DNA of 64,000 nucleotides from Antedon bifida (taxonomy: Eukaryota; Echinodermata; Crinoidea; Comatulida; Antedonidae), in contig OY727100.1 of the NCBI GenBank assembly GCA_963402885.1, positions 1,984,001-2,048,000 of the forward strand, read 5' to 3'. Under the pieces are notes generated by a model. The model did no database searches and was not told the origin of the DNA. It saw nothing but the letters and a program-made list of their open reading frames with translations. This document shows, one piece after another, positions 1,748 through 56,580 of this stretch (its first letter is position 1; each line of letters opens with the position of its first letter). The position numbers and the translations under genes were made by a program.

Positions 1748-1779
1748 TAGGTGATCATTTTATTCTAAATGATCACCTA
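1748..1779. repeat. 32-nt hairpin TAGGTGATCATTT/AAATGATCACCTA
   Basis: 13-bp perfect arms with a 6-nt loop. The same sequence is at 3323-3354, 4895-4926, 6503-6534 and 6564-6595, the last two being a local 61-bp tandem duplication. It is missing from the first unit, whose equivalent place at about 210 has only the neighbouring 21-nt hairpin, so it behaves like a separate insertion within the array unit. Confidence 0.8.
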
Positions 1780-13600: not shown

Positions 13601-13872
13601 TATATATATTCCGAGTATTTTGATACCAATATCTTGTCATTAGACCAAAGGGTTATGGAGATATGGCCATTTAGTCGCCATTTTGAATTTGGGGCTGTTA
13701 CCATGGTTACGGGATCGTGAAAATTTGTTACCTAGCATTTTTGGTATCCTAGCACTATAATAAAGTAAAATCAAGTGAAATCTCACTTTGGGCATTAAAA
13801 TCCTACGGAACCCTAGCTATTTTCATACATGAGGAACCTGACTATCTAGTTTTCGGTTTACATTTTTACGAT
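10679..13872. repeat. Full inverted-repeat extent around foldback 1
   Basis: The two ends are reverse complements from ATCGTAAAAATGTAAACCG inwards. The 30 bp outside the transposon proper match the flank of the second inverted-duplication copy at 56498-56527, and resemble the left TIR of a MITE at 57152. The foldback may therefore sit inside an older MITE. Confidence 0.7.
10709..13842. mobile_element. Foldback element 1, 3.1 kb, long inverted arms
   Basis: Ends are GTCAGGTTCCTCATG and its complement, with TA on both sides. The left arm (10709-about 11505) and the right arm (about 13050-13842) are reverse complements. Each arm holds two ~400-bp direct sub-repeats built on the words CCATATCTCCATAACC and TTGACCCTTGACCTTGAC. 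The 1.5 kb interior (11510-13045) has no convincing coding region; the 61-codon frame at 11957-12142 is unsupported. A diverged fragment of the same element is at 24079-24643. Confidence 0.8.
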
Positions 13873-22570: not shown

Positions 22571-23319
22571 TATATTCATGTCATCATCTATGCCAGCAGA
22601 CACTTTTATGCCTTCAACAACAACGCTCAGATCTTCTATCTTGCAATATGATACTGAAAAAAATATATACATTAATTAAAGTATAAGTTGTCTGTGTAAA
22701 GAGGTCAGAAGTATTTGTACACCACTAATGCATTATTATCATCAGGTAAAAATGTATGAAGAACCACTAAGATTAATTCCAACATGGCATAATTCTGGAG
22801 ACATTCACACATTAACCAACAATGACTAACGTAGCAGAAATTCATATAAATTTGGTTATTAAATTAATTACCTCTATCTCATTGTCTTGTTACTTAATGA
22901 ATGTAGATGACATCTTTGACAGTATTCTGTTCTTATCTCCATATATCTGAAACATTGTTCTTGATGTCTGGTTCACATTTTCCGAACATTTTCACCTGAT
23001 TATGTATTTTCCTAAAAAGCATGGATAGGAAGGGAAACTATTATATTAATATTATGATTATTTTGACAACATCATACAATACATTATTGTTGTGATTTTT
23101 AAAGTCAAATTACCTTGTCCAAATGCTTCACATACTTTAAAGTATGTTCTTCTCCCTTTCCTCAGCTCGTAGTATTATAGTAAGTAGGCCCTATTATAGA
23201 GTATTACGGTACATATGGTCACATTTCTTTCTCCTTTTCTGAACATCTTCATTGCTGATCAGAGCAGAGGTGCTCTTTCAGGTTTAAACTTATTTTATCC
23301 CTCCATCCATGACATCATG

Positions 23320-24078: not shown

Positions 24079-24643
24079 GTCAGGGTCCTCGTGTAATTCC
24101 GTAGGATTTTATGCCCAAAGTGAAATTTCACTTGATTTCACTTTATTAGCTTACAAGAACACCACAAATGTTAGGTAACACATTTTCACGACCCCCTAAC
24201 CATGGTAACAACCACATTTCAAAATGGCGCCCAAATTAATAACCCTTTGGTCTATCAACAAGATATTGGTTACAAAATACTCGGAACATTGTAATGGAAC
24301 ATTTTGACGAAATGTAATAGGAAATACTGTTTTCTGCACTATTCACCTTGACTCGTACTGTATCCAATAAACGGGTTTGTCATAGCAATTTAAAAATTGT
24401 CTTAAATTTCCCACACCATACATACATAATTATATTTATTGTAAAGAAATAGTTTGTGAACAAATGACCGGGAGTAAAGTTATTGATCTTTGACCTAATA
24501 AACATGAACTTTTTGTGGTAGGGATTGAAAAATATGTTTATACATATATTATTATCACTTTAGTTTCTTGAATATATAATTATCTAATTCGCATTTGGTT
24601 TTTATATATTTTATAAATATTATATACTTTTATAGTGTAAGCA
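24079..24643. mobile_element. Fragment of foldback-1-type element
   Basis: Starts GTCAGGGTCC after TA and follows the left half of foldback 1 (10709-about 11690) to the end of the arm and part of the interior. The interrupted host sequence is whole at 37796-37970. About 25 bp of host were lost at the right junction. Confidence 0.7.
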
Positions 24644-24644
24644 T

Positions 24645-25022
24645 GGATTAAAGAATAACAAGATACGTATCGACGGTGACATCAAACGATTTTGCAATGT
24701 ACAGTAATAAAAATTGATATTTTAAATATGAAAACTGAGGTACTAGCCTATTGAAAGGTGGTATTCCCCCCACCTCTCCCATAGGCCTATTTTGAGTAAA
24801 AGCGTCAAAACAGGGCGTTTCGCGCAAGTCAGAGTTTGCACGGCTGAAAAAGAGTGCTTGTCCAGGGCCGTAGACAGGACCTGTGGCGAAGCGATATTGG
24901 CTAATTGACGCCCCAGATGGCCGGAAATGGTACTCTCGCACATAAAAATCTTGATAAATGGCGCCTCAATCTACAGGAAAAGGCATTCTTATGTAGCATG
25001 CTACTATGAGCAAAACGATTAT
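24645..25022. other. Spacer without recognised gene
   Basis: The first ~45 bp match 37910-37955. The part around 24700-24770 resembles 58750-58810 (ATATGAAAACTGAGGTA). Short minus-strand frames here look like chance. Confidence 0.5.
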
Positions 25023-30004: not shown

Positions 30005-32797
30005 CAGTAAAAATATGGTTGAACCTAGAAAAAATTGCAACATAATTTTTTTTTGTTTTATTTGGTTGATATGGTGAACATGAACATCATATCCAAAGTT
30101 TACCAAAATCGGACATCGGGAAGTGGGTTAATTAGCATAAATTCGAAATGGCCGCCATTTGCTATTTTAAAGCCCCATATCTCCTTAACGGTTGGATTTA
30201 GACCACCTAAGTGCATTACGAGTAGATATAAATGTGATAGTAAACATTCTAATTAGCATATTTAAATTTCCATATGACGTACCTATGACGTCATATGGTA
30301 GTTGTGATGTCATAAATTATGTTATAAATGCTTAAATGACATTATACTATGCGAACAATTTAGAAACTGCAGAAAAACAAGTTTCCTAACATTCTCCTTG
30401 TTGAAATGAACATAATTTCCAAAGTTTACCAAAATTGGACGTCAGGAAGTGTGTTAATTAGCATAAATTCAAAATGGCCGCTATTTACTATATCATTTTG
30501 AAGCCCTATATCTCCTTAAAAGTGCATTGCGAGTAGATATAAATATGACATTAAACTTCCCAATTAGCACATTTAAATTACCATATGACGTAAATATGAC
30601 GTCATAAGGTAGTTGTGACGTCATATATTATGTTATAACTGCTTAAATGGCATTATCCTATGCTAAAAAATGTAGAAACTGCAGGAAAACAATTTTCTAA
30701 CAATTTCCTGTTGAAATGAACATGATATCCTAAGTTCACCAAAATCAGACTTCAAGAAGGGGGTCAATTAGCATAAATTCAAAATACCATTTTGAAGCCC
30801 TGTATCTCCTTAGCGGTTGGGTTTAGACAACTTATGTGCATTACGAGTAGATATATATGTAAAAACCATTGAAATTTATCATTAAGTTTCCATTTACAAA
30901 ATCTTATGAAAATAGATATTCTACAGAACCGTATGAAAGGTGATCATCAACTGTATTTCCGAAACTGATTTGTACTCAAGCGCACATCTTGTTTTGTGTT
31001 TTCTAAAAGTACATCTTTTAGAACTTTATCTCTTTAAATTGGTAAAGGAATAACAAAATATTGTAATGAGGCGATTGTCTGTGGGTCAGGCTATTCAAAC
31101 CCATCATTCCCACAAACTCATCTCAATTCCCTAACTGGAAATTGAGATGATAAATGAAATGATAAATGTCATACTGTAGTTTTTCTGTATAGTCAGCATC
31201 TCCATTCTGCTCTTTCAAAGTTGCTATTTCATTGCATCTGTTTGGTGTCGATCATTTATGAGACAACAACTTTTTATGATGTTTTATATAATGTTTATCT
31301 TTTGAATGCTGTTTCCAAGATTCAATGAGCATATAACAAGGACACTTCATCCTAGTTAACATCAGTTAAAAGATACACATCAACGGAATCCAAAAATGGG
31401 TTGTTAAGGTAATAAAGTAATTTTCAAACTTGCCACTACTAATTACAGTATTTTATTTTTCGACAAGACAGTATTCAACTTCCTTGACAAAAAATGTCAG
31501 AAAAATGGAATAGAAACTTTGAATGCAGATGGGGATCTATTAAATATCTTACTTTGCCATAATTAAAAAAAGCGATTGCGTTTTAAGACAGAAGAAGCAA
31601 AAAATAGTGGAATAATTGGTACTTAAAAAACATCTTAAGGTCCAAATTTGCAACATCTTTGTAATGCTCTGCACTTGCAAAAGAAACAGGGGGATGTATT
31701 CTATTCTCAGCAAGAACTGTTCGGTCCAAAATTTAAAAAGACATCAGAAAAGCCAATGAAGTAGACTTGCTTTGCCTACATGCATGGTGGAAGTATTTTG
31801 ACGGCGCCAACATTACATTTTTTATGTATGTACTTTGGATTGGAAACTTACTGTGATCCAACTTCATATTTAGGATGGGGTCGAATTATTAAATCTCAGA
31901 CTCATTACAGAATTAAGAATCCTATTTCTGTAAATATATATGAGATATATGAGATATATATGCAGTTATAAAAATTTGCAGTTGCAGAAAATTAACTGGA
32001 ATGTTCTATTGCATGTTGTGAAGGGTGGCCGAATAACTTCTGATACCCATGATCTTAACCTGGATGTGGTAAATGTTCTACTATTTTCATGAGTTTAAAA
32101 ACATTTTTTCCTTTCGGTTTCTATATTTTCCCCTTAGAATAATACCAATTGAGCATTATTGTGACAAAATATATGACGTCATATGTCTTATGACATCATA
32201 GGTACGTTATATGGCAATTTAAATATGCTAAGTTTAATATCACATTTATATCTACTCGCAATGCACTTGGGTGGTCTAAAACCAAGCGTTAAGGAGATAT
32301 GGAGCTTCAAAATGGTACGATAAATAGCGGCCATTTTGAATGTATGCTAATTAACCCACTTTCCGACGTCCGATTTTGGTAAACTTTGGAAATAATGTTC
32401 ATTTCAACAAGGAGAATGTCAAGAAACATGTTTTCTTGCAGTTCCTAAATTGTTCGAATAGTATAATGTCATTTAAACAGTTATAACATAATATATGACG
32501 TCACAACTACCATATGACGTCATAAGTACGTCATATGGAAATTTAAATATGCTAATTAGAATGTTTAATATCACATTTATATCTACTCGTAATGCACTTA
32601 GGTGGTCTAAATCCAACCGTTAGAGAGATATGAGGCTTCAAAATAGCAAATGGCGGCCATTTTGAATTTATGCTAATTAACTCACTTCCCGATGTCCGAT
32701 TTTGGTAAACTTTGGATATGATATTCATTTGAACCATATATACCAGACAAAAAAAAAATTCTGTTGCAATTTGTTCTAGGTTCACCCTATTTTTGAC
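30005..32797. mobile_element. Foldback element 3, ~2.8 kb
   Basis: The left arm (about 30005-30650) and the right arm (about 32140-32797) are reverse complements beginning near AAAATATGGTTGAACCTAG. Each arm has direct sub-repeats containing ATTAGCATAAATTC, ATCTCCTTAACGG and CATATGACGT; a third degenerate sub-repeat lies at 30700-30870. The interior 30900-32100 has no supported gene. The ends are imprecise to about 10 bp. Confidence 0.75.
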
Positions 32798-33294: not shown

Positions 33295-33825
33295 GTAAAG
33301 CACTGCAGCTGCCAATCAAACAAACGCGCTCTTTGAACTCCATGTCTCTAACCGCGGCCCTCTATAGAACGCTACGAATCAACTATTATATTTTTTGACA
33401 ACAAAACATACCCATGTAGAAATCGTATGCGCGGTCTGATTGTTCTATATACATGTCTGCGTCGATGATATATTGACAACAAGATATTGCTGAAAATGTG
33501 TTTTTAGTTTCATCACAATCGGACAACGAAAAGTTCACTTTCTTACGACCGTAATTTTAAGTAGGCTTAGTTGGTGATATTATTAAAATATGCAATTTTT
33601 TTATTTGAATTATCATACTGTCATGCAACCCACTTAAATTAAAAATTGCGTTAATCTATAGAATATTAAAGTATCTATGACCATGTATGTTGTTACCGTG
33701 TGTTGTGGTGTGCAGTACAATAAACGTGTTTTTAATATATGGCTAAGCAGTGGTTTTTACATGAACCTTCCTAATTATCGATGTGATTATATTTAAATAG
33801 TTTAGTCAAAGAGTTAGAGTGATTG
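33295..33825. repeat. Direct repeat flanking exon block 2, left copy
   Basis: Matches 37976-38480 in the same orientation. The two copies bracket a ~4.7 kb block with the four coiled-coil exons and one helical exon, as expected after a block-sized tandem duplication. Confidence 0.8.
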
Positions 33826-36413: not shown

Positions 36414-36575
36414 CTGCAAAAACAACGAGCCAACATGATCTACATTCATTTTCAAAAAAATAGATACTGTTTACAAAAATATAAACAAAATTGAAGTTTG
36501 TGATCGGTCTCAAATTATTGTGCATCATAGGTTGTTAGTTATGGAACGCCTCCTCTGCCTTCAGTTCACATTTAT

Positions 36576-36890
36576 CATGCAGTACACACCAATCGTCATG
36601 CAGTACACACCAATGCTCATGGAGTACACACCAATGGTCATGCAGTACACACCAATCGTCATGCAGTACACACCAAACGTCATGCAGTACATACCAATGG
36701 TCATGCAGTACACACCAATGGTCATGCAGTACACACCAATCGTCATGCAGTACACACCAAACATCATGCAGTACACACCAAACATCATGCAGTACACACC
36801 AATCGTCATGCAGTACACACCAATCGTCATGCAGTACACACCAATGGTCATGCAGTACACACCAATGCTCATGCAGTACACACCAATCGT
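36576..36890. repeat. 21-bp minisatellite, 15 units
   Basis: Unit CATGCAGTACACACCAAT plus a variable CGT, GGT, GCT, ACG or ACA end. Because 21 is a multiple of three and no unit contains a stop, both strands stay open (repeating MQYTPIV, or MTIGVYC on the other strand). Confidence 0.9.
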
Positions 36891-37250
36891 CATTCAGTCA
36901 AATATTGCGTAATTTATACCGCCACCTATCGACAAAATCGAATATCACGTGACGTTTATTAGACGGCTGTAAAACTAAGACTATTTATTTCATTTTCTCT
37001 TCTTTTATGGAATTCAATAATTGCAATTGCCTCCTGTGTCTTGCATAATAAATTACTGTATATATATTACTATTAAAGAAATCTTGGAATCTATAGGACG
37101 TAAAGCACGTGCGGTGTAGTAGTAGACAGCGTGAGTTGCTGTAGTATAATGTTTGAATAGCCTTAGTTTTACAGCCGTCTAATAAACGTCACGTGATATT
37201 CGATTTTGTCGATAGGTGGCGGTATAAATTACGCAATATTTGACTGCATG

Positions 37251-37586
37251 ACGATTGGTGTGTACTGCATGACGATTGGTGTGTACTGCATGACGATTGG
37301 TGTGTACTGCATGACGATTGGTGTGTACTGCATGACCATTGGTGTGTACTGCATGACCATTGGTGTGTACTGCATGACGATTGGAGTGTACTGCATGACG
37401 ATTGGTGTGTACTGCATGATGTTTGGTGTGTACTGCATGACGATTGGTGTGTACTGCATGACGATTGGTGTGTACTGCATGATGTTTGGTGTGTACTGCA
37501 TGACGATTGGTGTGTACTGCATGACCATTGGTGTGTACTGCATGACGATTGGTGTGTACTGCATGACGATTGGTGTGTACTGCATG
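37251..37586. repeat. 21-bp minisatellite, 16 units, inverted
   Basis: Reverse-complement version of the left array with one more unit and a different order of variant units. The two arms have therefore changed independently since the element formed. Confidence 0.9.
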
Positions 37587-37626
37587 ATAAATGTGAACTG
37601 AAGGCAGAGGAGGCGTTCCATAGTTA

Positions 37627-37745: not shown

Positions 37746-37975
37746 TTGTTCAATGTCAGTTCGCTTATAGCAAGTTCTCGAAGTTTCTGAAGGTCACTAA
37801 ATGTCGTTAGCTTAAAGCCACCGTCGTTAGATCCCTCCGTAGCATTCCGAGAAGATTGGTTTGTGACGACCATGTCTAGTTGGCGGCATCCATCAACTGC
37901 GTACGTCCATGGATTAAAGAATAGAAGGATATGCATCGACGGTGACATCAAACGATTTTACAACGCGCTTGCCTA

Positions 37976-38480
37976 TACTAAAGCACTGCTGCCAATCAAA
38001 CAAACACGCTCATTGAACTCCGTGTCTCTAACCGCGGCCCTCTGTAAAACGCTGCGAATCAACTGTTACATTTTTTTGAGACCAAAACGTAACCATGTAG
38101 AAATCGTATGCGCAGTCTGAATGTTCTATTGACATGTCTGCGTCGATGATTAATTGACAACAAAAATATATTGCTGAACAATTCTGTTTTAGTTTCATCA
38201 CAATCGGACTACGAAAAGTTCACTTTCTTACCACTGGTAATTTTAAGTAGTTGGTAATAATAATAAAATATGCAATTTTTATATTTGAATTATCATTATT
38301 TGCCTGCCATCTTCTGTCATTAAAAATTGCGTTAATCTATAGAATATTAAATTATGCATTTGACCATGTATGTTGTTAGCGTGGCCGGTGTTCACACATA
38401 CAACAATCGTGTTTTTAATATATGGAAGCAGTGGTTTCTTCATAAATCTCCTTAATTATCGATGTGATTATATTTAAATT
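37976..38480. repeat. Direct repeat flanking exon block 2, right copy
   Basis: Partner of 33295-33825, with a few small indels. Confidence 0.8.
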
Positions 38481-38697
38481 GTAGTGCCTGGTGATTGGCT
38501 AGTGGTTATGTCATCCACATCACATCCAATCACCGGGCCTAATTGAATGAAAACAGCGATCCCTGATCCGAGATTGGCTGGCTATGTATAGTTGCGATAC
38601 GTTACCTAGCGGTCGTTTTGAAAAGTACACGCAGGGCAAACTTAATCACGAACAAACGAAGTACCTATTATTATTCACACAAGAAGTAAGACAACGG
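38480..38697 (+). promoter_or_regulatory. Possible promoter with CCAAT boxes and 5' exon
   Basis: Several GATTGG/CCAATC words lie at 38492-38570, two of them in inverted repeat, in locally GC-richer sequence. A good splice donor follows: ACAACG|GTGAGT at 38697. No coding exon could be linked, so this is a weak proposal. Confidence 0.25.
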
Positions 38698-39399
38698 TGA
38701 GTATATAGATCATGATTACACGTTGTATCTACTACACTTAAGATTAGCAGTATCAATGTCGGCAAATTATATGGTTTACTAGTAAGCCTAGAAGGCCTAG
38801 GCCTAGTATTCTTGCTGATTTTGTAATTTTACATGTAGGCTGAGACAACAAATAGTTATTGTCTCAGTGCAACAATATTTTCTATTTTCTAGATAAAAAA
38901 TAAGCAATCACCAGTTGTGTCTGCAAACGATTTGTAGGTAGCAGTAAAGTTTCTATGAAGGACCGGAAACCAAAGAACGCGCGAACGAAGCGTAGCCAAC
39001 AAGGTTAAATGTCGTTGCACAGTGTGCAGTAAACAATATATTAGGCACGCGACCGTTTCGTTGTTACCATGCGGTTAATTAAACTGTAACATTGTGGGCG
39101 GTCCGCGGTCTGTCGGCGAGAGTCAAGGAACCCTTGATCTCACGTCGATGCATATCCTTCTATTCTTTAATCCATGGTACGTCAGAGCACCAACATAAGT
39201 AATTGTACGCGTAGTATAGTAGCACTGACCATGTTATTGTTATCTATTTTTAATCTATTTTAAAATAACCGGTTAAATTGCGTTATGCAGCAGAAACAGA
39301 CCCCATGTGGCTTCATCAAACTCTATTGATCGTCTGAGGTACCGCTATTCTACAATACGGGAGTGACGATCACAAAGGATGCCGACCTGCTTAGTGGAA

Positions 39400-39446
39400 C
39401 CAGGGAGATGTAAAATAAATAATAAATTTATTTTACATCTCCCTGG
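39400..39446. mobile_element. Micro-hairpin insertion A, 47 bp
   Basis: Perfect 21-bp arms (CCAGGGAGATGTAAAATAAA...) with a 5-nt loop, flanked by TGGAA at 39395-39399 and 39447-39451. A nearby related sequence (39551-39575) reads through without the hairpin, giving an empty site. Confidence 0.7.
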
Positions 39447-39449
39447 TGG

Positions 39450-40430
39450 AACGCGACCAAGCTCACCACGTGGCTTTTATCAACTTGCTCCTTTTACACT
39501 TAATTAACTGTGACGCTAGAGATTGATAGTACACAAAGGATGTCGACGTATGCTTGGTGGAATGCGATCAAGCTGACGATGTGCTCCGACGTACTATTTT
39601 CAATATGAAAATGTGCAAACCATCGGTGATTGATGACCGTCGAAACGATACGTGTTTTTAAAATCTATTTAATTTAAAAAAATAAAAAAATCTTTAAAAA
39701 ATAGGGGGTGGAGGGAGGACGCCCCATACACCCCCGCTAGATCCGCCACTGGAATCGAATTTTTTTTCTCTATAGGCCTATGGCCGCAAAACGCATTTCC
39801 GGCTATTCTCTTTTGTTTATGAACTATAAGTTGGTGTAATTTCCAGCCCACAAATTTCAATTGCCGACCTTATATTGTCAGAGGACGGCATTCTCTTGCC
39901 GACCGAAATTATAGGCTAGATCCCTCCTCCTTTCAAGCCTCCTAGCAACAACATGGTACATTAGGGATCGTATCATTGAGACTTTAACAGGCATATTCAC
40001 CATCATGTGGTGTTTAGGTAAAAAAACATGGAATTAAGATGATCTCTGAATTCACTCAACCGTTGCATCTTGCACTTGCGTGTGAGCTGCATGCTTTCTC
40101 TATCAAGCAGCTGGCTGGGCACGTCACACGCACGCGGAGACCTGTGTAGGGGAATACCCTGTTATGTCAAGCAAACAACTATGCTCTGTGTACAGCTCGC
40201 TAGAGCTCCAGAACCACGATGTTCAGCAGTTATCAAATAGAACTTATCTTGTAAATTTTAGTTTTAGGTTTTTATATTTTAGTTAAAATATATATATATA
40301 TATATTAATTAAATTTATTAAGGCTTGACTAGGCCTGTAGTGAACAATCGTCGTGTTGTGTTAGCATGCCCAGCAAAAAAAAAGTGGGAGACCAAGCGGA
40401 ACTCGCTGTTCAGCGGGGGATCGTACGATC
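39450..40430. other. Spacer without recognised gene
   Basis: Contains an imperfect tandem copy of 39350-39420 at 39515-39600, an inverted 36-bp piece (39143-39178 region) of 37909-37944 just before, an (AT)n tract at 40290-40307 and a perfect palindrome CGGGGGATCGT/ACGATCCCCCG at 40414-40435. No gene. Confidence 0.5.
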
Positions 40431-40537
40431 CCCCCGACCCCCCCCCTGGTTACGGGCCTGTGTAAGAAAAAGACCAATATATGCGCATACTACGCGCTCC
40501 TGTCGTAAAAATAAATAAAATGTACCAGCTTGCGGAC

Positions 40538-43500
40538 CGGCTTGTCCTCAATTGATTTGGGTTTCTGGAAAAAAAAGAAAAAAAATAATCTCTTGAAACT
40601 TAACCTTAATATTACTTGTGCCTACGATATACTCGGTGATTGTTAAAAAATGTACGTTAATAGTATAATTACGGTTCTTTAAAGATGTATTGTCCCCCTG
40701 AACAAATAATTTTTAAAAATATTTTTGTTGAATAGGCCATTTTAATGATACATAAAAGTTATTCACTTTGAAATAAAATTTGATCGAAAAAAAAAATTAT
40801 TTACCTGAGAAAATCGTAATTTAAAGTAAAAAATAGTCAACCGGAAGTCGGTTGGCTGGCAGCCAGCTGGCTTCCGGTTTAATTTAACCCTTGACCTGAA
40901 TTAGCTTATGAATTATGCATATTGTATGATTCTTGCGCGTGTATGTGACCTCTAGGTCATCAGAAAAAAAATACGACGTGATATGACGAGACGACGATGT
41001 GGGAAAGTTCTGTAGTTTAACAACAAAAAAACAACTCCTACTTGAAGAAAAGACTATGGCTAGGCCCTAGCAGATTGGTAAGTAAGAACTGTAGTTTCTA
41101 TGGTGCAGCTTTGTTAGTTATAGGAAGCCTAGCTAGCCCATTACAGCTGTACTGGCTATCTAGTGTACTATCCCCTATCTATTGGCTAGGCCTAGAGTAG
41201 TAGCTAGTCTAGTAGTAGTAGTACTAGTGAGTGAGGGTTCACCCTGAGTGAGTAGCAGGCCTAGCTAATACTAATAGATACAACCTGTAAGCCTTATTAA
41301 TAGTTATTGCCAACCTAGCTTTAAATAGGATTAGGCCTATAACATTCATCTGTGAGCATGGAGTAAGGAATAAGGTTTTAGCATGGAGGTATAAAAATAA
41401 AATATTTTATACCTCCATGGTTTTATTGTGACTTGTGAATTTTGACACCACCAACTCGTCTTATTTTTAGTATAATACTATAATAATAGTCTTTATCATT
41501 ATTCATATCACTTTTCATTCATTTTAAAACATTTAATTTTCTTTTCTATGTAGAGTTTGTGATTATAAAAAATTATACATAAGAGCAGCGAAACTCAAAA
41601 AGCGAAAAACTTGTGAATGGCTGCCAAAAATAGAAAATAAGGTCACCACCAGGGCCAGGAGAGATTATGGTGCTTGGTTTTTCCTTCATGATTAATTAGA
41701 TTTTAATGCTAATATAAATTTGTGACAATTGTAACTAGGCCTATACTGTACATCCAATAATGTAATTATTTTAGAGAAAATGACCAAATAATCTAAGTTA
41801 AATATTTTTTGGAATGTGTACTTTACAGTACTTAGTACCGTTATGTTGAAAATTCTTCCAAAGCAATAACGTTCAAACCAACATTCACACAATTAAACTT
41901 TTTATGTACATATTTTAATAAAAAAAATGTCTTTCTTTTAATAGGTATTAACGCACTTGAATGAACAATATGAGCAAGTAGTGGAAAATGGTGAAGAAAT
42001 CAACACAAAATGTGGTAGCAACATTCACAATATTTATTTGAACGTTTCTTACTATGACACTTTAAAATGGATGAACAATCACAGAAGACAAGCTATTGCT
42101 GTAATGCCACAATCAACACATCAATTAATAGTTAATAAATTGTCAACAATAATGCAGAAATTCAATGAAATATACTAGTAATTAACTCATTTTTTACTGT
42201 ACTGTAAATCTTCACACATTAAAATTATAGTGATTTTATCTCATGTACTGTAGTAGTATTTTTTATTTATTTAATGCTGTATACAAATGTTATTGCTCGA
42301 ATTATGAAAACTATACAACATTTTAAAAGCTGGAAAACAACCAACACATTTGCCTAATGCTTTATGATAGTCATCCAATATTTATCTTGTGTTCCACTAC
42401 CGAGTCTACTGCCAGTTGCCTTTAAAATGCTGTATGGGTGTAACTTCTGTTCCAGTCTTCATTAGCTTAAGTCTATAAATTGAAAAACAATGATGTATAA
42501 ATACAAAAGTCAAATAGAAAAGTTAAATATTTCACAATTTATTGCATACATATAATTATTATTTCTGTACATGAATCTGAAGTTTTTAATTTGGGGTACT
42601 AATGTACAGTAAGGAATCCCTGAAAAGTGCATCTCCTCCCTCAAAAAGGCCTAGTCTAATTACTAGTGTTTTCGTTTTGGTTGCTATCAACAACAATCTA
42701 TTCTACCGTCAACTTCTTTGGTACTGTATGCTGATCATTTTCCAAATGTTCGTTTTGTGTCATCAGTTAGTCTTTTTTTAGACTTTAAAATTAATTCGAG
42801 CTCCAAATGTATATCAATGGTACATCAACATAGTAGGCCTATTTCCTGTAGCTAGTTGTGGAGTGATGGCTTAGCTAGGTGAGTACGATATATAGGACCT
42901 AGCTAGGCCTCAAAGTGGGTTCCCGTCTACTTTTCTGACCCGATTATCTGCCTGCCTACAGCTGCTGCTACACTACACTACACAGTAGTAAACTACAGTA
43001 CTAACTAGGCCTAGGCCCTACTAGATAGTAGAAGTAGGCTTATATTATAGCCCTAGCCTAGATAGCTAAGCCTATAACTATACGCCAAAAACTATTATAG
43101 GAGGATGTGTCATTCATCTAAAATAGAATTCTACTTAACCAGCAAATTAACGGCAGAGCTTTTTACATCATACGATCAGGGAAACCCCAGCACTTTCTTC
43201 TGTTCTTCGCACATGTTTATTTACGTGGTGAACAGATCGGATCTCCCCTGTTTGGATACTCATTAACATATCATGCATATTTATGAGCTGTTAGCTAACC
43301 ATCGTTATTTAGGAATTTCTGAGCTTATGAGTTCGAAAAAATGGTAAACTTATTTTGATTTTTTATAAGCGAAATCAATATTTTTTTCGGATTTTTTTTC
43401 GGCGAAAGTGAATAACTTTATTATAACTACAAAATGGTCTATTCAAAATTAGATTTTTTTCATCTTTATTTTTCATGTTTTGGGGGACAATACAATTTTA

Positions 43501-46500
43501 AGTCCATTTATTTCAAAATTCTACCACTTTAATTAATTTAATTTCCATTATGTTTTATAATAACTTCCAATTAAACACAATCTACAACAAATGATATTGC
43601 ATCATTGTATAATGTTTATTTCCAACAAAAATTAATATAAAAAAAAGAAGTACATATTTTTGATTGTCAGCGCGCATAATGTATTACGTAGGGCCATTTT
43701 TGCCCCATAGAAAGTTGACACTTGACATAATCCATTTATTTCAAAATTCTACCCTTTAATCCACAAATAGTCAGCCTCTAATCATGAATAATTTCTTTAT
43801 GTTTTATAATAACCTCCAATTAAACACAATCTACAACAAATGATATTGCATCATTGTTTAATGTTTATTTCCAAAAACAATTAATATAACATAACATAGG
43901 AAAGAACATATTTTTTGATTGGTCAAAAATGTACGTTAATAACAATGGCGTAACGAAGGTGCACATTTTTTTCGATCCAACTATAAAATTATTTTTTAAG
44001 GAATACACTGACTAACCTTTTCTTCCCTCGTTTGTTGTTTTTCAACTTCATCCTTGGCTTTTTTGTCAGCGTCGGCGGTTTGTTCTTTCATGTTTTCTTC
44101 TTTTTTCTATAGTAAAAAAACATTATTATTATTTTGTTTTATTCAATATATTACACAGAGGTGCCTCACAAGGTGGAACCACCTTATCTTCAAGGCGCCT
44201 CAGATAACAAATACAACTTTTTAATATTAAGTTAACAAGTTAATATTAAGAGGCGGACACAGGATTTTGAAATAGGTGGGTGGTGTGTGGTTACAGGAAG
44301 GGTGTTGCAAGCCGTCTAAAACATCCTAATTCTTATTAGCCGAAACGGCCCACTGTGGAAGTTAGTTTCAAAAGATGTTTAAACCAAACTAAATAATATA
44401 TTAGTCCAATTGGGATGGTATTTATTTGAATAAACGCCCAACACCTCCCCAATAAAACATCACTTAGAATAATCGACGCCCCACCCCCACCCATCTAATA
44501 AACGCCACGTTTTACACACAATATTGTATTATATTTATAACACAATTATACTATTTGTAGTATAATTTATTGGACTGTTATCTTTAATTTACCAAGCATT
44601 TGTTATTCTTTTTTACCACTTTTCATTAGAGGATTTTATTTGATTATAAATGTTACCATTATTAAAACTAAACAATTAGCCTAAACCAGGGAGTTCTAAT
44701 AACAACTCCCTGGCCTAAACGTATCCTTCGAATAAGCACCTCGCTCAAATGAACTCCGCCTCGCCACCTCCGTTCTATAACCCAAATAAACACTATACTT
44801 TAAAATGTTATTAATCATCTAATACACTGTGAAACAGAGTAGGTTTAGTTTTACGAATAATGGTAACCGACCGAAAACGTCCAAGCCAGAACCTCCTCCT
44901 AAAACCTTTTTACCCGATTATCATTCCGAAAACCATTGTCTATTCGTGAATTTGTCTGAACCAGAGGGTGAGCTCGCTTCGCTCACTCCCCCTCTAGTTC
45001 AGATAAATTCACGTGCTTAAAATTAGCAAATATAAAACATTTTAATACTATAACAAACGCTATTGATGTTAACAAATTACAAAGTTAGTGATCATAAATA
45101 GGATTCTTTTACATTTTTATAAAATGTTGTTATTATACATATAGATATATATATATTTTTCGAACAATTTCACATAAAAAAAACCTTTTACGGCCAATAG
45201 TTTTTGAGATATAGGAATGTGTACTACCAGGTACAGGTCAAATGTCAATAAAAAGATGTTTGGTCATTTTCGTGGAAAAATTCTTATTAGACTGAATAAA
45301 AACATATACCTTCAGATTAATTTGAGCCCTATTTAAAATCTGTTCAACTGCTAGTTACAGAGTTATATGGTATGTAGGTCAAAGGTCAAACCTGCCAAAA
45401 ATCATACTTTTTCATTTGAACAAATATTAACCAACATGCTTCAAATATTCATAAAACACAATGTTTACACTTTCTCCCATGATTTGCACACGAATGCACT
45501 TTTTGAAATAGGGTACACTAGATATCGGTTGAGCCAATGGCATGAATAACACTTTGTGTTTGTTTATGACCGTTTTATCGGACGCATAGCCTTATTATAA
45601 TAATAACTAATTAGAATGTACATTTTTTAGTGAGCTATTTAGCTCATGTTCGACGCACACTGTTATGTTATGTGAGGAAATTGACACGCGTGACAAACAA
45701 ACACACATCGCCACGTGAATTTTCCGGCGCACACTGTGTGTTATTCGTGTCAGTTGGCTCAGCTTAGCTTATAATAGCTATTAGCTATATACAGCGCTAG
45801 ATGATTTAGGCCACTGAAAATAAAACAAGGCCACAGCCATTAAGTCGCGTGCTACAATGCATAGTGATACCGGACCGACAGACAGACCGACAGACCGACC
45901 GACAGACCGACAGACAGACAGACAGACCGACCGACATAGTGAACTATACTGACCGAAATTACTGAACATGTTTAAAAATGTTGAAATGTTTAAAAACATT
46001 TATATTTTTTTAATTTACACGTGCGTAGCCTGTCACTTTTGACGTGCTCGTATAACGTAATTTCGAGTTGAAAAGTAAGTCAAGAAAACAGAAATCGGGC
46101 AAAAAGAGTGCGCAATAATATTTAACGCGCAGTGCGCGCGCAAAAATATGCGCACTCATGGCAATTTTGTAAACGCTTAAAATTGCCTGAAACGTACTCT
46201 TATTTCATCGAAAATAAATTTTGAAAATTTTAAGCGCGCGTACGCATGCGTTAGCGTACGCGCTACGCACGTAATTGTATTGCCATATGATGATTTATGC
46301 CCTGAAATTTATGAGTACCAAATTTTATTTAATTGTGATTCATGGTTGTGAAGATATGATTACAAACGTGATTTCGTTAAATCGTGCGTAGACCGCGTAA
46401 TTTTTTATTGCGCACCGTGAAAACTTAACCACATTGATTCCTGGCCATAAGGAATATACTGTGAAAAATTGACCTAGCTAGATTAAACTGATATCAAGAT

Positions 46501-46582: not shown

Positions 46583-49158
46583 CAACCGACCGACCGACAT
46601 AGTGAACTATAGAGTCGCTTCCACGCGACTAAAAATTGATCCGATGGAATGATAAAAGCACGATTTTAATTTAAGGGCACAAACTAAAAAATGTAAAAAT
46701 AAATATATATGAACCTAATTGCAATATAAAAAATAAGTCGATTCTAATAATTTAAGGTGGAGCTCCACCCAGAACATTTCTATTTTCTGTTATTTAAAAA
46801 TGTCATCCCTCATACTTCATATTAAAAAAATCACGCCTTTTCATGATTTAGGGGATACCTTGTAATTCTTGTTTTTATAATAGGATGCCTGAATTGCTTT
46901 TCAGTCAGTCCTAAGCTTCCATATCGCTTGACTATTCTGTGACGTGAACAATACAATTTGTAGAGGATTTTTAAATTCTTAATGTGCGAGAAAACCCAGG
47001 AACGATAAAGCATTTTCGAACCCGCCCATGAATACACAGGCCTAAACAAGCTGAGGCTGAGTAGACGGCCTAGCTAGGCCTAGGACTAGCTTAAAATTAC
47101 AAGCAAGTTAATTAAGAATAAGATGATGCTTGCTGTTCATGATGTTATGTAAAACATACTAATATTTTTATCTCAAATATTACTTGGGCCTAAACAAATT
47201 GCATTCATTGTGTGTATAATCTATCATTTAGAATAAAATGATCACCTATTGTTAATGTATGAAATCTTTATTATTCTTTCTGTAGGGCCTAAAGATTTTG
47301 TGTAACAAATATCTCAAAAAGTTAAATGATCACAAAAATTTCACAATATCTTTCAAACAATTTAACTTAATTTTAACTCATCCGTGACGTCATTTTTACG
47401 CCATTTTGTGAAATCACATTATCAATCATATTTCTATAACAATAAAATTCACTATAAACTTCAGGTAATGGGTAAAAATATTATTATTATTCCCAAAATT
47501 AGTGCGCAAAAACACGCATACAAAATAAAATTTGTTGTACAAATCACAATTTTATTAGTACATTCACTGAATTTGAGTCCATTCCGACTTAAAATAACGC
47601 TATACGAGCTCATTAGAAATGACAAAAGTGCTGAAAATGGAAAAAAAATAAGGCATTTTTAAAGTGAATGTAATTCTTCAGAATGCATGATGACCCCCAA
47701 TTTATTCTGGAAGCCATTGAGGTGTAGATGTTAATTCTGTACACATTTGACGTAAAAAATGTTGTGACGTTATCATATGGCCACCTGAATTTAAAAATTA
47801 GGATTTTTTTTATCTTTTTTTGTAGGTTATCATATTCAACAGAGCGAATCTAGGTTATTTGAGCACAATTTTAGTTCGCTAAAATTTAGTATGTGCTTGC
47901 TAAATTAATTATCTTTTTCATGACTTGCCACAATTTTCATTTTGATGACGTCATCACGCGTAAAAACTTGAGTAACGTAGGTCGTGTATTTTCACCTTCA
48001 GCGTACATTTGAATATCTCACAGCTCTTCAGAATTAAAGCTGACCTTGATGATTACAATTTATTATGAAAGCTGATGAAATGTAGATATGAATTCATATA
48101 AAAATTAAGCCTATCGGATGTTGTGACGTTATGATATGGCCAGGTAAATTTAAAAAGTAGTTTTTTCATCTCTAGTCAAAGTTATACAATTTTCAAAGAG
48201 CGCGCACCGCGCTTCTACGTGCCATTTTTTCCCCCAAATCTTATATTTTTTTCTCAATTCATTATATTCGGAAATTGTCATCTTCAAGTTTATTTTGATA
48301 ACGTCATCATACCAAAACATTCGAAAATAATGTTGGTCCCGTAATTTCACCTATGTTACACTCTATATATAGAGTATACTATGACACATAATAGGCACCA
48401 ATCTGCACCATAAGCATATATTCATCAGGTCATAGAATTGCATAAATCAATATTTTGCAGTCATATTTAACGTACGTGCATGTTTTTTTTAAAATTAAAT
48501 AGTAAAATTATAAAAATGATCACTTATAATTCTTCAAAGTGACGAGTTAATTTAGTTTCATATAGGTTATGTGATGCACAGCGATCGTGAAGGAAAAACA
48601 AATAAAGTGCAAGCTTCAATAATAAATCCAATTCATTTTCGCGGGTCCGATCATCTTTCCTTTATTTTTAGAATGGATCGTATTTATGTTGGGCCCGGTA
48701 AAGAGCGCTATAATAAGTATTTTTATATTGCTATTATCATCTAAAATCCATCTAATTGTTGTTCAACAAATTGGACTATTTTGTACTTTGATAATCTTGC
48801 GACATTTAAGAGACAAAAGACATTTTTATTTCGTCAAACAGAAAAGTGAGATCAGCTTACCCAAGGTCCATCTTCAGCACAATGCTCAACATTTGTAATT
48901 GCAGACAGAATTTTCACAATTTGGCCAGCCTTCAGTTTGCAAGCCTTACTTAACAGCTCTTCGGAGGCCTTTTTGATCTTGTTAAGAGTAAACAGCTGTA
49001 AAAACAATGAACCAACATAATCTACTTTAATTTGTGAAAGGAAGATTGAGTAAAAACAGAACTGTTAATTCACTAACCTCTTGTTCTATTAGGACGTTTA
49101 TAGTTTTTTCCGTGACACCTTCATCTATCATTTGTTTATACAGTTTATTTTCCATTTT
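40538..49158 (-). CDS. Proximal exons of the unknown coiled-coil gene
   Basis: Minus-strand exons, all phase 0-0: 49078-49158 (27 codons, with the first ATG as codon 2: MENKLYKQMIDEGVTEKTIN...), 48861-48995 (45 aa helical, LFTLNKIKKASEEL...), 44017-44106 (30 aa coiled coil, KKEENMKEQTADADKKAKD...) and 40538-40564 (micro-exon KPKSIEDKP). They are paralogues of the 36282 and 21769 helical exons, the coiled-coil array, and the plus-strand micro-exon at 50169. Read on through blocks 2 and 1, the whole minus strand would give one 681-residue frame over 33 kb. The micro-exon donor here is GTCCGC, a poor match, so it may be skipped or dead. Separate shorter genes are equally possible. Confidence 0.5.
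41382..41419. mobile_element. Micro-hairpin insertion B
   Basis: 15-bp perfect arms CATGGAGGTATAAAA / TTTTATACCTCCATG. GTTTTA is present on both sides (41375-41380 and 41420-41425), with one extra G at 41381. Confidence 0.65.
41554..42178 (+). CDS. Possible two-exon small gene, unknown
   Basis: Exon 1 41554-41641 follows TTTCTATGTAG and ends AAG|GTCACC (weak donor). Exon 2 41945-42178 follows TTTTAATAG and ends with TAG. The frame joins exactly, giving ...CEWLPKIENK|VLTHLNEQYEQVVENGEEIN... and a C-terminus NKLSTIMQKFNEIY. ATTAAA, a possible poly(A) signal, follows near 42219. No start codon lies in exon 1, so an upstream exon is needed. I recognise no domain; the product would be small, hydrophilic and helical. 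It sits inside the intron region of the minus-strand gene, so it may equally be chance. Confidence 0.3.
42180..43480. other. Intergenic/intronic, no gene seen
   Basis: AT-rich to 42830, then a GGCCTA/TAGGCC-rich piece (42830-43085) and AT-rich again. No coding or known repeat signal. Confidence 0.5.
43499..43985. repeat. Two tandem copies of intron repeat
   Basis: 43499-43730 and 43731-43985 are related. The same family is at about 18146-18420, and at 52245-52500 in reverse. Shared words are CCATTTATTTCAAAATTCTA and GATATTGCATCATTG. It always lies beside an exon of the coiled-coil family, so it marks shared intron ancestry rather than an independent transposon. Confidence 0.75.
44686..44713. 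mobile_element. Micro-hairpin insertion C, 28 bp
   Basis: 10-bp perfect arms CCAGGGAGTT / AACTCCCTGG with an 8-nt loop, flanked by a 6-bp repeat CCTAAA at 44680-44685 and 44714-44719. It begins with the same CCAGGGAG as hairpin A. Confidence 0.7.
44946..45013. repeat. 68-nt near-perfect hairpin
   Basis: CGTGAATTTGTCTGAAC pairs with GTTCAGATAAATTCACG, and the inner parts AGAGGGTGAGC and GCTCACTCCCCCTCT also pair. No direct repeats flank it. Confidence 0.6.
45830..45950 (-). repeat. Short interspersed GTCGGTC element, copy 4
   Basis: Reverse orientation, with expanded GACAGACC tetramers and AAGTCGCGTGCTACAATGC at the edge. Confidence 0.65.
46020..46450 (+). repeat. Diverged copy of the 1.57 kb array family
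   Basis: Follows the order of the array unit: GTGCTCGTATA, GCGCGCAAAAAT, AATTTTAAGCGCGC, GAAGATATGATTACAAACGTG. Strongly diverged. It lies between GTCGGTC copies 4 and 5. Confidence 0.6.
46520..46632 (-). repeat. Short interspersed GTCGGTC element, copy 5
   Basis: Reverse orientation; starts CATAGTGATACCGGACC, with a long GACA run, and ends at GTCGCTTCCACGCGACT. Confidence 0.65.
46640..47215. other. Spacer without recognised gene
   Basis: The minus-strand frame at 46831-47049 shows no splice context or known motif. Nothing else is seen. Confidence 0.45.
47220..48560 (-). repeat. Single inverted copy of the 1.57 kb array family
   Basis: Near-complete reverse-orientation unit: it includes the AAATGATCACCTA arm (47234-47247), GATGACGTCATCACGCG (47944-47960), CGCGCTTCTACGTGCCA and the end at AATTCTTCAAAGTGACGAG (48527-48547). 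It is clearly diverged from the array at 1-6595. Confidence 0.8.
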
Positions 49159-49591: not shown

Positions 49592-52500
49592 ATGGCAACA
49601 GACTTTTTAAGAGATTGTTTTGCTTTTTTCTTTAAAGACGAACCAGTTGAGGACAAGCCGGTAAATATAAACGTTTATTCATTTTCACAATTTTAATTGT
49701 CGCGCATGGTGTGCGCATATATCCCCTGCAGTCAATAATTAATAATATTTCTGTGTTTAATTGAATGTTATTGATAACATAAAGGAAATTCTTCTTTATT
49801 AGAAACTGACGTATATAAACTGTGGATTAAAAATTAGCATTTTGAACTAAAATGATTTCAAGAACCGTTATTAGTAATTAACCTGCCTACTTGTGGGGGA
49901 GGGGGGTGGGGGTGGGGGTGGGGGGGCTTAATTGCGCAAAGGTGTGTGGATGACACACACCAACTTTCTTCTCCCCTAATATAAGGGTTCCATCGTATCA
50001 AGTGTTGCCACCAAACGGCACTCATCAATTTGTATTGCCCTAAACGGCGTTGGCAGAGATGGACCAGAACACCCGGGTACGCCTTTACCCACCGTTACGG
50101 TATTGTTTTTAACGTACATTTTTTACCAATCATTGAGTGTATCGTAGGCATTGTTTTTCATTTTCCAGAAACTCAAACCATTTGAGGACAAACCGGTAAA
50201 TATATATTTATCAATTTTTAATAGCTGGGGGCGCATGATAATTAGTCTCTTTCTACACTTAATTTGGTTATCTGCATTTTTTAAAACTATTCTTCTTCTT
50301 TCCTTCTCTCATTTTTGTTCGAATGAACGTTTCTCCAAAACTTGTAAACAGAATATTTTGTGTATAACTTGGTCAACATTATAGAGCTTTTTTTGTCTTA
50401 CTTTATGTGGGTTCGTCCCATTTTTATTTCATCATCTTTTAAAATATTGAAATACATTGCACGTAATAAATTAGTCTGGGTTCCAGACGGAGTTTTGACT
50501 TAATATTAGTAAAAAGATATTTTGGCACGTATGGCGTTTCATTCGTATACTACTCGAGCTTGGGCAAACACGTATAATTCACGTGGTTTGAGACCAAGAA
50601 TTCTTGGTGCATACGGTTATCTGTTATAATAGTTTCAGACGCATGCAATTGGCTATACTCACTCGAAAATATTTGAATATGCATTTTGGAAGTTGAACGA
50701 CTAAGCGCTATGTTACGTTTTGACGATGTGGAGACACACATACAGTACACCCACACGTGTGTACACTTGATTTTAGTGTAAACGAACTTCATGTCGTTTC
50801 TTCGCAAAATGATGTGATGATGAAAGTTTCTGTGAATGCTAGATTGTTTTATACGCCTTGTCTGGTAAACAGTTTACAGAGTATATAATGGAATCTTATT
50901 GTTGGGTGTCTAGAAAACTAAGACCTAAGATATTAGTTTTCTAGATCTAGAAAACTAAGATATCTTAGGTCTTAGTTTTCTAGATCCGATGATGGGTGTC
51001 TAGAAAACTAAGATCTAGAAAACTAAGACCTAAGATATCTTAGTTTTCGAGATCTAGAAAACTAAGATTTTTTTTATGATGGGTTGTACCATTATATCAA
51101 GTGTAATGTATTTTTTATTGGTTGGATTATTCTATTACCACTAAAGGCGAGTTGTTTCTATGATGTGATGAGATTTTCAGTAAACAATTTTAGATTTCCT
51201 AGTGGTACATGCTATTTTTGTCTACACATAATATACATACACACAATTACAAACTAAATTTTCCCATATTTTATCACCCTATTTTAATTCCCACGCAGAT
51301 CCACCCTTCCCTGCTTGGTATTATTGTCGGTGGTGGTATGTATACCTACGCCCATATTGGCGTTTTAGTTGCCAGTTCGCTCCTACGAGTACGGCCGCTA
51401 GGCCTAGACTTGTTATTGTAACAAATAACACAAACACTGGGCAACACTCACCTGTCACGATTTATCATTCAAAATTGTTGTTTAAAAGTCTTACCCGACT
51501 CGATCGAAGTATTCTGTTTGAAACCAAAATGACATCCGTTAAATCATTTGTTGATTCAAAATCCATATACGGCCCGCCCCATATAGCCAAATACGGTGTG
51601 TTAACCTACGTCATTCTTATCTGATGTTTGCGGTCTGCAAATCGATTAGTCTCTATTTCACACAAACATCGAAAAGTCTCGAAATAACTACAGACTTGGG
51701 GCAAGTCTAGTAATGAATAAATAAATAAATAAATATAAGTAATTATTGTAATGTATAGTGCCATACAATAGAATTAACATTATTTTCCAACCTATTTTTT
51801 GTTTGTTTATCATTTCTATACCCGTTAACTAGCCTACTTTTTACTGTTCAACATTGTTTTCTGGTATCATTCATTTTGTCTACACATTAACGTACATTGT
51901 TTTTATACATATTTTCTAATTCATTTAATCATATTGACATTTTTTAAAAATCATTTTGTTCTTTCTCTTTTGAGACATCACAATAATTCATTCATTCATC
52001 AAGGGCTGGCTGCATTTTACATAAACATAAATTTGCATTTTCTTTGTTTATTAAACATTCACATTGATGGGAATTTCCAATATGAAACATACATATAGAA
52101 CTTTATTTCAAATTGTGCACCTGACCTTTTGATAATGTCAGAATTGCGCAACGTAAGTTACGCGTGATTTTATAAAATTATATGTTTGACCATAAATTAA
52201 AAATCAAAAGGCATTTTGCATTGTTACTTGGCAAAGGTTTAAATTATGTCAAGTGTCAACTTTCTATGGGGCAAAAATGGCCCTACGTAATACATTATGC
52301 GCGCTGACAATCAAAAATATGTACTTCTTTTTTTTATATTAATTTTTGTTGGAAATAAACATTAAACAATGATGCAATATCATTTGTTGTAGATTGTGTT
52401 TAATTGGAAGTTATTATAAAACATAATGGAAATTAAATTAATGATTAGAGACTGACTATTTGACGATTAAAGGGTAGAATTTTGAAATAAATGGATGTCA

Positions 52501-54337
52501 AGAACTTTTATCAATTAACGTACATGTTTACCAATTCACCGAGTGTATCATAGGCAAGTCTCCAGGCCAAGTAATAAGGTTTCATTTTTATACTGTTATT
52601 TTTTTTAAAATCATAATTTCATTTCTAATGTGTGGCAAATGTTCTCTGGATAATTGGTCGAGTACTTTTGCTAACACCTTGATCATGTCTTTTCTATAGG
52701 AATCCAATGAGTTAGATATTGGACAAGTTAAAACGTTTGTAGATAAGCTATTTCAACAACCAAAGATTCGAAGGAGCATCAAAACGATTCGATTTGCAAA
52801 GAAGTGCGTAGAATTTCTTGAATCAAAAACTGGAGAGTGTGTTGGTAGAATAGAGGATGACATTTGTGAAGCGACTGTTGCGGATTTCACGCTGATGGTA
52901 GAGAAGATGAAAGGACGAGTAACTACTAATGTAATAAGCCAATATATATTTTTATTTAGACCTATTAGTTATTTTTTTCTGATAATTTTTTTTCAGGAAA
53001 TATCAAACAATTTTAAAGTTATGTAAACAAATCTTGTATTGTCCGCAGCAAATTACGTACTTTTTACACAAATTAATACTTTATAGTAAACCAAAAAGGA
53101 ACACACATTTCAAATCGATAAATACATATACAAACCGGTGTATTGATAATGCCATCTACAAATGGCTAGATTTGAATTTCTTACCATAGAATTAACTAAC
53201 CAAAACTATATTTTCAATATAACTGCTCCCAAATTTTTCCCAAAATGAATTGTTTCATAAATCATGTTCTTATAGTTGATAGTAGACCTACACAAATTTT
53301 CAACGTTTGCCAACAAAGAAAGTCAGAAAGTGATGTCTGATGTTTTTGGTAACTTACCGTTGTTTGACACACGTGAGAGTTCTTCTGCAGATCATTGGAG
53401 AAATCTCCTGTCACACTGGAAAAACTTCACAAGTTCGTTTCGACAAAAGGGGTTTTCAAACATAGAGCTGATATTTTGTGGATTAAATGGCGAACAAATT
53501 ACATTCAAACACAACAGTGAAAAGTTAATTAAAATCATGGTTCATCTAAATAACAACCGTGAACAAGTAATGGTAAGTCTATAATTTACTTACTTTTTAT
53601 TGTGTATGTCAGTATCGATTCGTAATGACTATGATAGGCCTAACTTCTAGATAGCACCCATGTGAATGAAAAGGCTAATCTACGAACGGTTTTACGGTTT
53701 AATTTGATTTGAGTTTTGTTGTTTATTGCATCACTAATGACAGTGCGTACGTGTCACTGGTACGAAAGTGACCATAAAACTATATTTTACATTAATTTAC
53801 AATGCATACAACAAGTGAGGCAAGTAATTGTATAATAATAAAATCAAACATTTCATTTTCTAACCCTAAGTCCAAATAGCCTTATCCATAGGATTAACGT
53901 AAACCGTTTAATATATAATAATCTTCGGTAATCTTTGGTTGAAGATGGCGGAGATATGCCTATATAAAATCACCGTATCAGTAAACATTTACATTTTCAT
54001 AACTACTGATTAATGTTTTTATCAGTTTCTAGCGGATAAGATAAACAAACGTACACTGGCAAACATCTTACTCAAACTTTGTGGAAATGAGGGCGCTGAA
54101 CAAACAACAGAACAGGCTGGACTACGAAGACTACTACAAGCGTTCATGACCAAATTAGAGACCGATAAATTAACCAATTTCACTGACGTCAAGCTATCTA
54201 TGTATGGTGAGAGTGGTTCGGCATTCCATATATTGGCTGGAAACAAAGACAACCCGCAAAAAGTTACAGGTTATGTTGACTCGAAGGGTGAATTCCATAT
54301 ACCCCAAAAGGAGTCAGATCAATGTATTATCCTCTGA
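49592..54337 (+). CDS. Unknown CaaX protein, complete five-exon gene
   Basis: Exons 49592-49660 (MATDFLRDCFAFFFKDEPVE...), 50169-50195 (9-codon micro-exon KLKPFEDKP), 52700-52918 (73 aa), 53276-53572 (99 aa) and 54026-54337 (103 aa plus stop) are all GT-AG and phase 0-0, giving 307 residues. The micro-exon repeats the end of exon 1 (EPVEDKP / KPFEDKP). The three large exons differ from the minus copy at 16005-17818 by few residues (for example GNLPLF for GKLPLF). C-terminal CIIL fits a CaaX prenylation box with X = Leu; membrane attachment is inferred. No coiled-coil exons are seen between exons 2 and 3, unlike the minus-strand relative. AATAAA follows at 54671. The family is not recognised; the start has GATCATGG context. 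Confidence 0.7.
49894..49926 (+). other. G-quadruplex-prone tract in intron 1
   Basis: Consecutive G5, G6, G5, G5 and G7 runs separated by single A or T bases on the coding strand. Confidence 0.8.
50200..52140. other. Intron 2 of the plus-strand gene, proximal part
   Basis: Mostly AT-rich; holds a palindrome cluster at 50904-51067 and an (AATA)n tract near 51716. Short open frames show no splice or domain support. Confidence 0.5.
50904..51067. repeat. Cluster of CTAGAAAACTAAGA palindromes
   Basis: GGGTGTCTAGAAAACTAAGA starts two ~90-bp tandem units (50904 and 50994). Inside, direct and inverted copies of CTAGAAAACTAAG, including a hairpin at about 50945-50985, fold on each other. Confidence 0.75.
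52140..52280. repeat. Segment shared with 60830-60970
   Basis: Shared words include CGCGTGATTTTAT, AAATTAAAAATCAAAAG and AACTTTCTATGG, in the same orientation. It lies just outside the inverted duplication. Confidence 0.55.
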
Positions 54338-56515: not shown

Positions 56516-56580
56516 CGAAAACTAGATATCTGTTGGTCAATTTTATCTTTTTAACAAGCTAAAAGTAGGAAAAATAGATA
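56475..56580 (+). mobile_element. Partial MITE related to 57152-57425
   Basis: ATGGATAGAGATC, AAACCGAAAACTAGATAT and TTGGTCAATTTTATCTTTTT parallel the left end of the intact MITE downstream. Confidence 0.5.

Follow-up and report, generated by a model that had tools for sequence, protein, structure and literature searches.

A 64,000-nucleotide stretch of the Antedon bifida genome (hereafter the window; G+C 33%) holds three very short perfect hairpins, each bracketed by a direct repeat, which raises the question of whether such hairpins are themselves mobile or are what a larger mobile element left behind. The first-pass annotation had placed them at 39400-39446, 41382-41419 and 44686-44713, where all three are present with perfect arms, and had given their flanking repeats as TGGAA, GTTTTA and CCTAAA. 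The repeats are real, but the register in which they were read is too short: when each hairpin is taken to start with CA and end with TG, the register used here for all hairpin coordinates and arms, the repeats reach 7, 7 and 8 bp (Table 1). The hairpins are referred to as H1, H2 and H3. Pairing extends into the flanking bases by two positions in H1 and by one in H3, and the H2 flanks, which agree at 6 of 7 positions, become two copies of GGTTTTA when shifted by one base. Predicted DNA folding energies were -23, -14.6 and -10.2 kcal/mol for H1, H2 and H3 (z -11.75, -8.20 and -5.57). We propose that the hairpins are probably excision scars of cut-and-paste DNA transposons belonging to the P superfamily or to a close mechanistic analogue of it, where the superfamily assignment is one that we infer.

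Table 1 Hairpins, target duplications and related features, in window coordinates
Feature	Position	Strand	Description
H1	39401..39445	.	45 bp; 20-nt perfect arms starting CAGGGAGATGTAAAATA; 5-nt loop
H1 target duplications	left 39394..39400, right 39446..39452	.	GTGGAAC, 7 bp
H2	41382..41419	.	38 bp; 15-nt perfect arms starting CATGGAGG; 8-nt loop; right end read inward is CATGGAGGTATAAAATA
H2 left target duplication	41375..41381	.	GTTTTAG
H2 right target duplication	41420..41426	.	GTTTTAT, 1 mismatch to left copy
H3	44687..44712	.	26 bp; 9-nt perfect arms starting CAGGGAG; 8-nt loop
H3 target duplications	left 44679..44686, right 44713..44720	.	GCCTAAAC, 8 bp
Empty site, diverged tandem relative of H1 flank without hairpin	39532..39583	+	found by alignment
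1,269-bp element	37908..39176	.	34-bp perfect terminal inverted repeats starting CATGGATTAAAG (CATGGA)
1,269-bp element target duplications	left 37901..37907, right 39177..39183	.	GTACGTC, exact 7 bp
56-bp fragment	24642..24697	+	89% identity to left end of 1,269-bp element

Whether the combination of hairpin and flanking repeat exceeds chance depends on the stringency of the rule, and both rules used here were devised after the hairpins had been seen. A strict scan of the 64 kb, limited to spans of 15-120 bp with CA...TG ends, allowed one mismatch at most in the 10-nt arms and one at most in the flanking repeats of 7 or 8 bp. It found exactly three spans, namely H1, H2 and H3, compared with a mean of 0.075 and a maximum of 1 in 200 order-2 resamples. 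Allowing 2 arm mismatches returned the same three only, and 40 resamples then averaged 1.0 with a maximum of 4, so that three is unremarkable under the laxer rule. Also on the unfavourable side, across all 48 perfect hairpins in the window (arm at least 9, loop 3-20), flanking repeats of at least 7 bp accompany four, as against 0.41% of random spans; these four are H2, H3 and two that lie inside tandem or palindromic arrays (6564 and 51018). H1 has a repeat score of only 5 in this table, a value found in 2.3% of random spans, because its arms run into the repeat.

The three hairpins have related ends and unrelated middles. The 17-nt tips of H1 (CAGGGAGATGTAAAATA) and of the H2 right end (CATGGAGGTATAAAATA) are identical at 14 of 17 positions, and among the 8,176 17-mers of the window that start with CA on either strand, the four that score 14/17 against the H2 right end are the four tips of H1 and H2. 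CAGGGAG is common to both ends of H1 and H3, which overall agree at 11-12 of 17 positions. The interiors of H1, H2 and H3 are all unlike, and no two hairpins are copies of one another: AATAATAAATT separates the two 17-nt tips of H1, and the 6 extra bases of H2, ATAAAA, repeat an adjoining ATAAAA. At each hairpin both 7-8 bp target copies are present around an inverted pair of tips, with one mismatch at H2. Exact scans of viral_contigs gave no match to the first 20 nt of H1; a 16-nt piece of the H2 tip had matches in 30 viral contigs, which by estimate we judged to be at chance level.

Looking beyond CA-initial 17-mers, we found one at 54841 that differs from the H2 tip at a single position (16 of 17 identical), a closer match than that of H1, with no hairpin at that place. 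The 21-mer CATGGATGGAGGTATAAAATA at 54837-54857 (+) holds the last 16 bases of the H2 tip, and near copies with 1-2 mismatches occur at 23291-23311 (-) and 15489-15509 (-), three in total compared with 0.02 expected; the places at 15489 and 54837 are duplicates of each other. A hairpin was looked for at the places of this 21-mer and none was seen. They could represent single ends that have decayed, or else a TATA-like motif unrelated to the hairpins, and if the latter, part of the likeness between H1 and H2 could share that cause.

For H1, the first-pass annotation had pointed to a related sequence downstream that lacks the hairpin, and alignment confirmed it: the H1 flank scored 31 against 39532-39583 when the hairpin and one repeat copy were deleted and 21 when they were kept in, while 977 other tiles across the window and 300 shuffles gave no score above 14. 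As the relative has neither the hairpin nor the second repeat copy, H1 is an insertion relative to it, with the target duplicated. No empty relatives of H2 or H3 were found within the 64-kb window.

A longer element with CATGGA ends sits 0.2 kb upstream of the hairpins. Searching the window for elements of 121-5,000 bp with CA...TG termini and exact repeats of 7 or 8 bp gave two candidates, one of which is the 1,269-bp element at 37908-39176. The other, 30257-32551, was given no weight, as its repeat is self-complementary and lies within a large inverted repeat. With the CA...TG rule dropped, the scan gave 15 rows for 7-bp and 18 for 8-bp repeats, mostly tandem arrays, inverted duplicates and self-complementary repeats. 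The end of the 1,269-bp element has only CATGGA in common with H2 and matches the hairpin tips at no more than 7-10 of 17 positions; we regard the element as a candidate non-autonomous P-like relative. No transposase was recognised in the six ORFs scanned among its 12 of at least 40 aa, and a Pfam search of 29 distinct ORFs (172 ORFs in the window reach 60 aa or more) gave no transposase domain of the THAP, RNase H or GTP-binding type; a transposase could be encoded outside the window, at another place in the genome. Exact scans gave no match to its 34-nt end in viral_contigs or to its first 27 nt in genome_contigs. A diverged copy of its interior (84%), without terminal repeats, lies at 33296-33801. 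Just upstream of the element is an inverted pair of 21-bp minisatellites of 15.4 and 16.4 units (36540-36985 and 37156-37622).

Cut-and-paste transposons usually leave no bases, or only a few, when they depart (PMC3878927). The P transposase, as described in PMC7776569, makes a 17-nt staggered cut inside 31-bp terminal repeats and duplicates 8 bp of target; the elements also carry internal 10-bp binding sites for it that lie further in than the terminal repeats. After excision a 17-nt 3' tail is kept on each donor end (PMC2895639). A similar course of events would account for the hairpins. An element with CA[T/G]GGAG terminal repeats would have inserted and duplicated 7-8 bp of its target; duplications are seen at all three hairpins, and a relative of the unoccupied site is seen at H1. 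The transposase would then have made its two strand cuts about 17 nt apart, one at the tip and one within the element, as others have shown for Drosophila P, and would have left about 17 nt of terminal repeat on each donor flank as a 3' tail. Finally, the tails would have been filled and joined, the junction losing a few bases or gaining a few templated ones. Because both tails have the same sequence and face each other, joining them would give a duplication, a near-perfect palindrome and a second duplication. The lengths of 26, 38 and 45 bp would correspond to a loss, a small insertion and a larger insertion at the junction. The arms of H1 pair over 20 nt, more than 17, so either the stagger of this family would be longer or three bases would have been added. 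The scars would be inert and their parent elements departed. That all of them lie within one 7-kb stretch, next to a 1.27-kb element still in place, would be consistent with repeated activity in the neighbourhood. The best-fitting account joins the two origins offered earlier, smallest transposase products or end-joining artefacts with templated foldback: a transposase cut followed by end joining, which leaves such a structure in Drosophila (PMC2895639).

One close comparison is with the P{wa} junctions listed in Table 1 of PMC2895639, which come from repair-mutant flies lacking Rad51. In many of these joined products, two copies of the 8-bp target enclose a piece of terminal repeat and its inverted counterpart, with filler between them in some cases. 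Both target copies are retained in 44 of the 66 isolates tabulated (23 junction types), with lengths of 7-44 bp (median 30) and arms that pair perfectly over 2-18 nt; a length of at least 26 bp together with an arm of at least 9 nt is found in 34 of the 44. The remaining 22 of the 66 had a target copy lost or shortened, 20 of them via long microhomology, so scars of this form are only part of the outcomes in that table. H2 and H3 fall inside the range of the 44 isolates in both length and arm, and one fly junction equals H3 in size (26 bp, arm 9), whereas H1 exceeds the longest of them by 1 bp, and its arm exceeds their longest arm by 2 nt. The likeness extends to the order of parts, a direct target repeat, inverted terminal-repeat tips with occasional AT-rich filler, and a direct target repeat; several of the tabulated fly junctions have AT-rich middles (TTATTATTATA, GAAATAATAAC) like the AATAATAAATT of H1. 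The fly products differ in being laboratory excisions of one known element in a Rad51-deficient background, whereas the hairpins here are natural and their parent elements were not seen. The duplications here are 7, 7 and 8 bp as against 8 bp in the fly, and the tips are identical at 6-12 of 17 positions.

At the level of the terminal sequence, similarity between the hairpin tips and the Drosophila P terminal repeat is weak. Against the 17-nt Drosophila P tail, the H2 right end matches at 12 of 17 positions (reached by 21 of the 8,176 CA-initial 17-mers) and H1 at 11 (132 of 8,176), followed by 10 for the H2 left end, 8 and 6 for the left and right ends of H3, and 7 for the 1,269-bp element. 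The gapped score of the 1,269-bp element end against the Drosophila P end was reached at 2,934 of 127,956 positions and is not significant. Galileo, a P-superfamily element, is described as having 7-bp target duplications, 8 bp in three copies, with the motif GTANTAC, while P and 1360 targets tend to ANAGT...ACTNT (PMC4168063); the sizes of 7, 7 and 8 bp found here fit the P superfamily, in which P itself gives 8 bp. Read inward, GT occupies five of the eight outer dinucleotides of GTGGAAC, GTTTTAG/T, GCCTAAAC and GTACGTC, a count that is itself favoured by a register picked to maximise the duplications, and on these sequences the duplications appear to lean toward the GT...AC form of PMC4168063. 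Galileo is otherwise described with long foldback-like terminal repeats (PMC3573991, PMC3688188), in contrast to the 34 bp of the 1,269-bp element. Outside insects, the zebrafish P-like elements Pdre2/THAP9 are reported to have 13-bp terminal repeats beginning with CAT and 8-bp duplications, with excision shown in cell assays (PMC10983969). Short CAT-initial terminal repeats and 8-bp duplications in a non-insect animal are points of likeness, but the reported Pdre2 terminal sequence, CATACCTGTCAAC, is unlike the ends here beyond CAT. Excision of fly P elements by the zebrafish enzyme in S2 cells is reported to have led to larger deletions in the flanks (PMC10983969). Counting against the excision-scar reading, besides the weak similarity to the fly tail and the absence of a recognised transposase among the ORFs scanned, are the mismatch in the H2 duplication and the difference between the 8 bp of H3 and the 7 bp of H1.

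The hairpins could instead be mobile in their own right, as ultra-short MITEs (26-45 bp) mobilised in trans by a transposase for which some 10-17 terminal bases suffice for recognition. Terminal repeats, target duplications and the empty relative of H1 together make a classical insertion signature, CAGGGAG stands at both ends of H1 and H3, and MITEs likewise combine terminal inverted repeats and target duplications with no coding capacity. Unlike MITEs, however, the hairpins form no repeated family in the window, where no further copies were found, and at 26-45 bp they are hardly more than ends. Their interiors all differ, and they leave no room for internal transposase-binding sites such as P elements have (PMC7776569). 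Bringing two ends that lie 26 bp apart into one complex would also be physically hard. The mobility that had been suggested for the hairpins themselves is thus unsupported, and we consider it unlikely; that they are the smallest known cut-and-paste elements, really moved by a transposase of this animal that recognises little beyond CA[T/G]GGAG and about ten further bases, is decidedly improbable. The different interiors and the lack of identical copies in the window are better fitted by separate excisions than by copies of one mobile hairpin. The excision-scar account requires no mobile 26-bp element, and from it follow common ends with differing interiors, AT-rich filler-like interiors and the survival of both target copies.

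Other origins were weighed against the same observations. Retro-inserted small RNAs were rejected on the unrelated interiors, Helitron 3' hairpins on the presence of target duplications, and introner elements were also considered and rejected; we know of no sequencing adapters that the hairpins resemble. Foldback (snap-back) repair or template switching during replication at an ordinary break, with no transposon involved, can yield perfect hairpins flanked by small duplications. What is copied in such events, however, is a neighbouring arm, and neither arm is present in the empty relative of H1; nor would such events be expected to give H1, H2 and H3 common ends, which makes this origin highly improbable. 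A hAT-superfamily origin, whether as footprints or as tiny elements, we regard as very unlikely, even though hAT elements have 8-bp duplications and CAGGG-like ends and H3 joins CAGGGAG ends to an exact 8-bp duplication. At 39741 and 40445 there are also sequences resembling transposon ends of the hAT type. Against the hAT target form NTNNNNAN given in PMC3878927, the H3 duplication GCCTAAAC has C at position 2 and the H1 duplication is 7 bp, and in the excision described there hairpins form on the flanks and not on retained element tips. A further alternative is interrupted gap repair, in which, once a TIR transposon of whatever superfamily had departed, repair synthesis off a sister copy was aborted and the ends were joined with only the element tips remaining. 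Most products of the wild-type fly assay in PMC2895639 arose by incomplete repair synthesis and end joining, and the outcome would look identical if synthesis halted after about 10-20 nt. Three independent events would each have to stop 13-23 nt from the end, though, whereas a 17-nt stagger yields that length directly, and we hold gap repair to be quite unlikely as the source of these hairpins.

If the excision-scar reading is true, a short palindrome enclosed by direct repeats of 7-8 bp would be a readable fossil of a departed P-type transposon, and past P activity could be searched for in genomes after the elements themselves are gone. The bases at the join would record germ-line break repair, as loss, microhomology or templated filler. 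It would also predict longer parent elements with the hairpin ends (CAGGGAGATGTAAAATA, CATGGAGGTATAAAATA, CATGGATTAAAGAATAG) elsewhere in the genome. Calls of a hairpin plus duplication may be misfiled as MITEs. Fly junctions of this type are already known from laboratory crosses; a mostly superficial search of the literature, which is no proof of absence, turned up no survey of a genome for naturally occurring scars of this type.

The window also contains repeats of other kinds. Some of its ORFs match reverse transcriptase, with endonuclease matches below the curated cut-off, and a tRNA scan and an Rfam scan at the gathering threshold returned nothing. Together with the base composition and the repeats, the reverse-transcriptase ORFs give the window the look of animal nuclear DNA. 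A large inverted duplicate of about 92-93% identity occupies 13843-18331 and 52313-56528; three ORFs of the first copy had no Pfam match. A filled/empty comparison of these inverted duplicates (13.8-18.4 kb against 52.25-56.6 kb) gave 10 gaps of at least 12 bp, of which six were checked for palindromes; the other four were a terminal gap, a TCAA repeat, and gaps of 126 bp and 218 bp. At a 20-bp gap near 13917 (13900-13940), the longer copy holds the hairpin GGGGAG-GCAGCT-CTCCCC with 6-nt arms, which was not counted since it has no CA...TG tips and no flanking repeat was seen. Positions 1-6600 form a long direct-repeat array with copies about 1.6 kb apart and recurrent hairpins (TAGGTGATCA..., TAATTCGTCA...), a diverged inverted relative lies near 48 kb (47223-48558), and 50909-51071 is a nested palindromic array of TCTAGAAAACTAAGA units.
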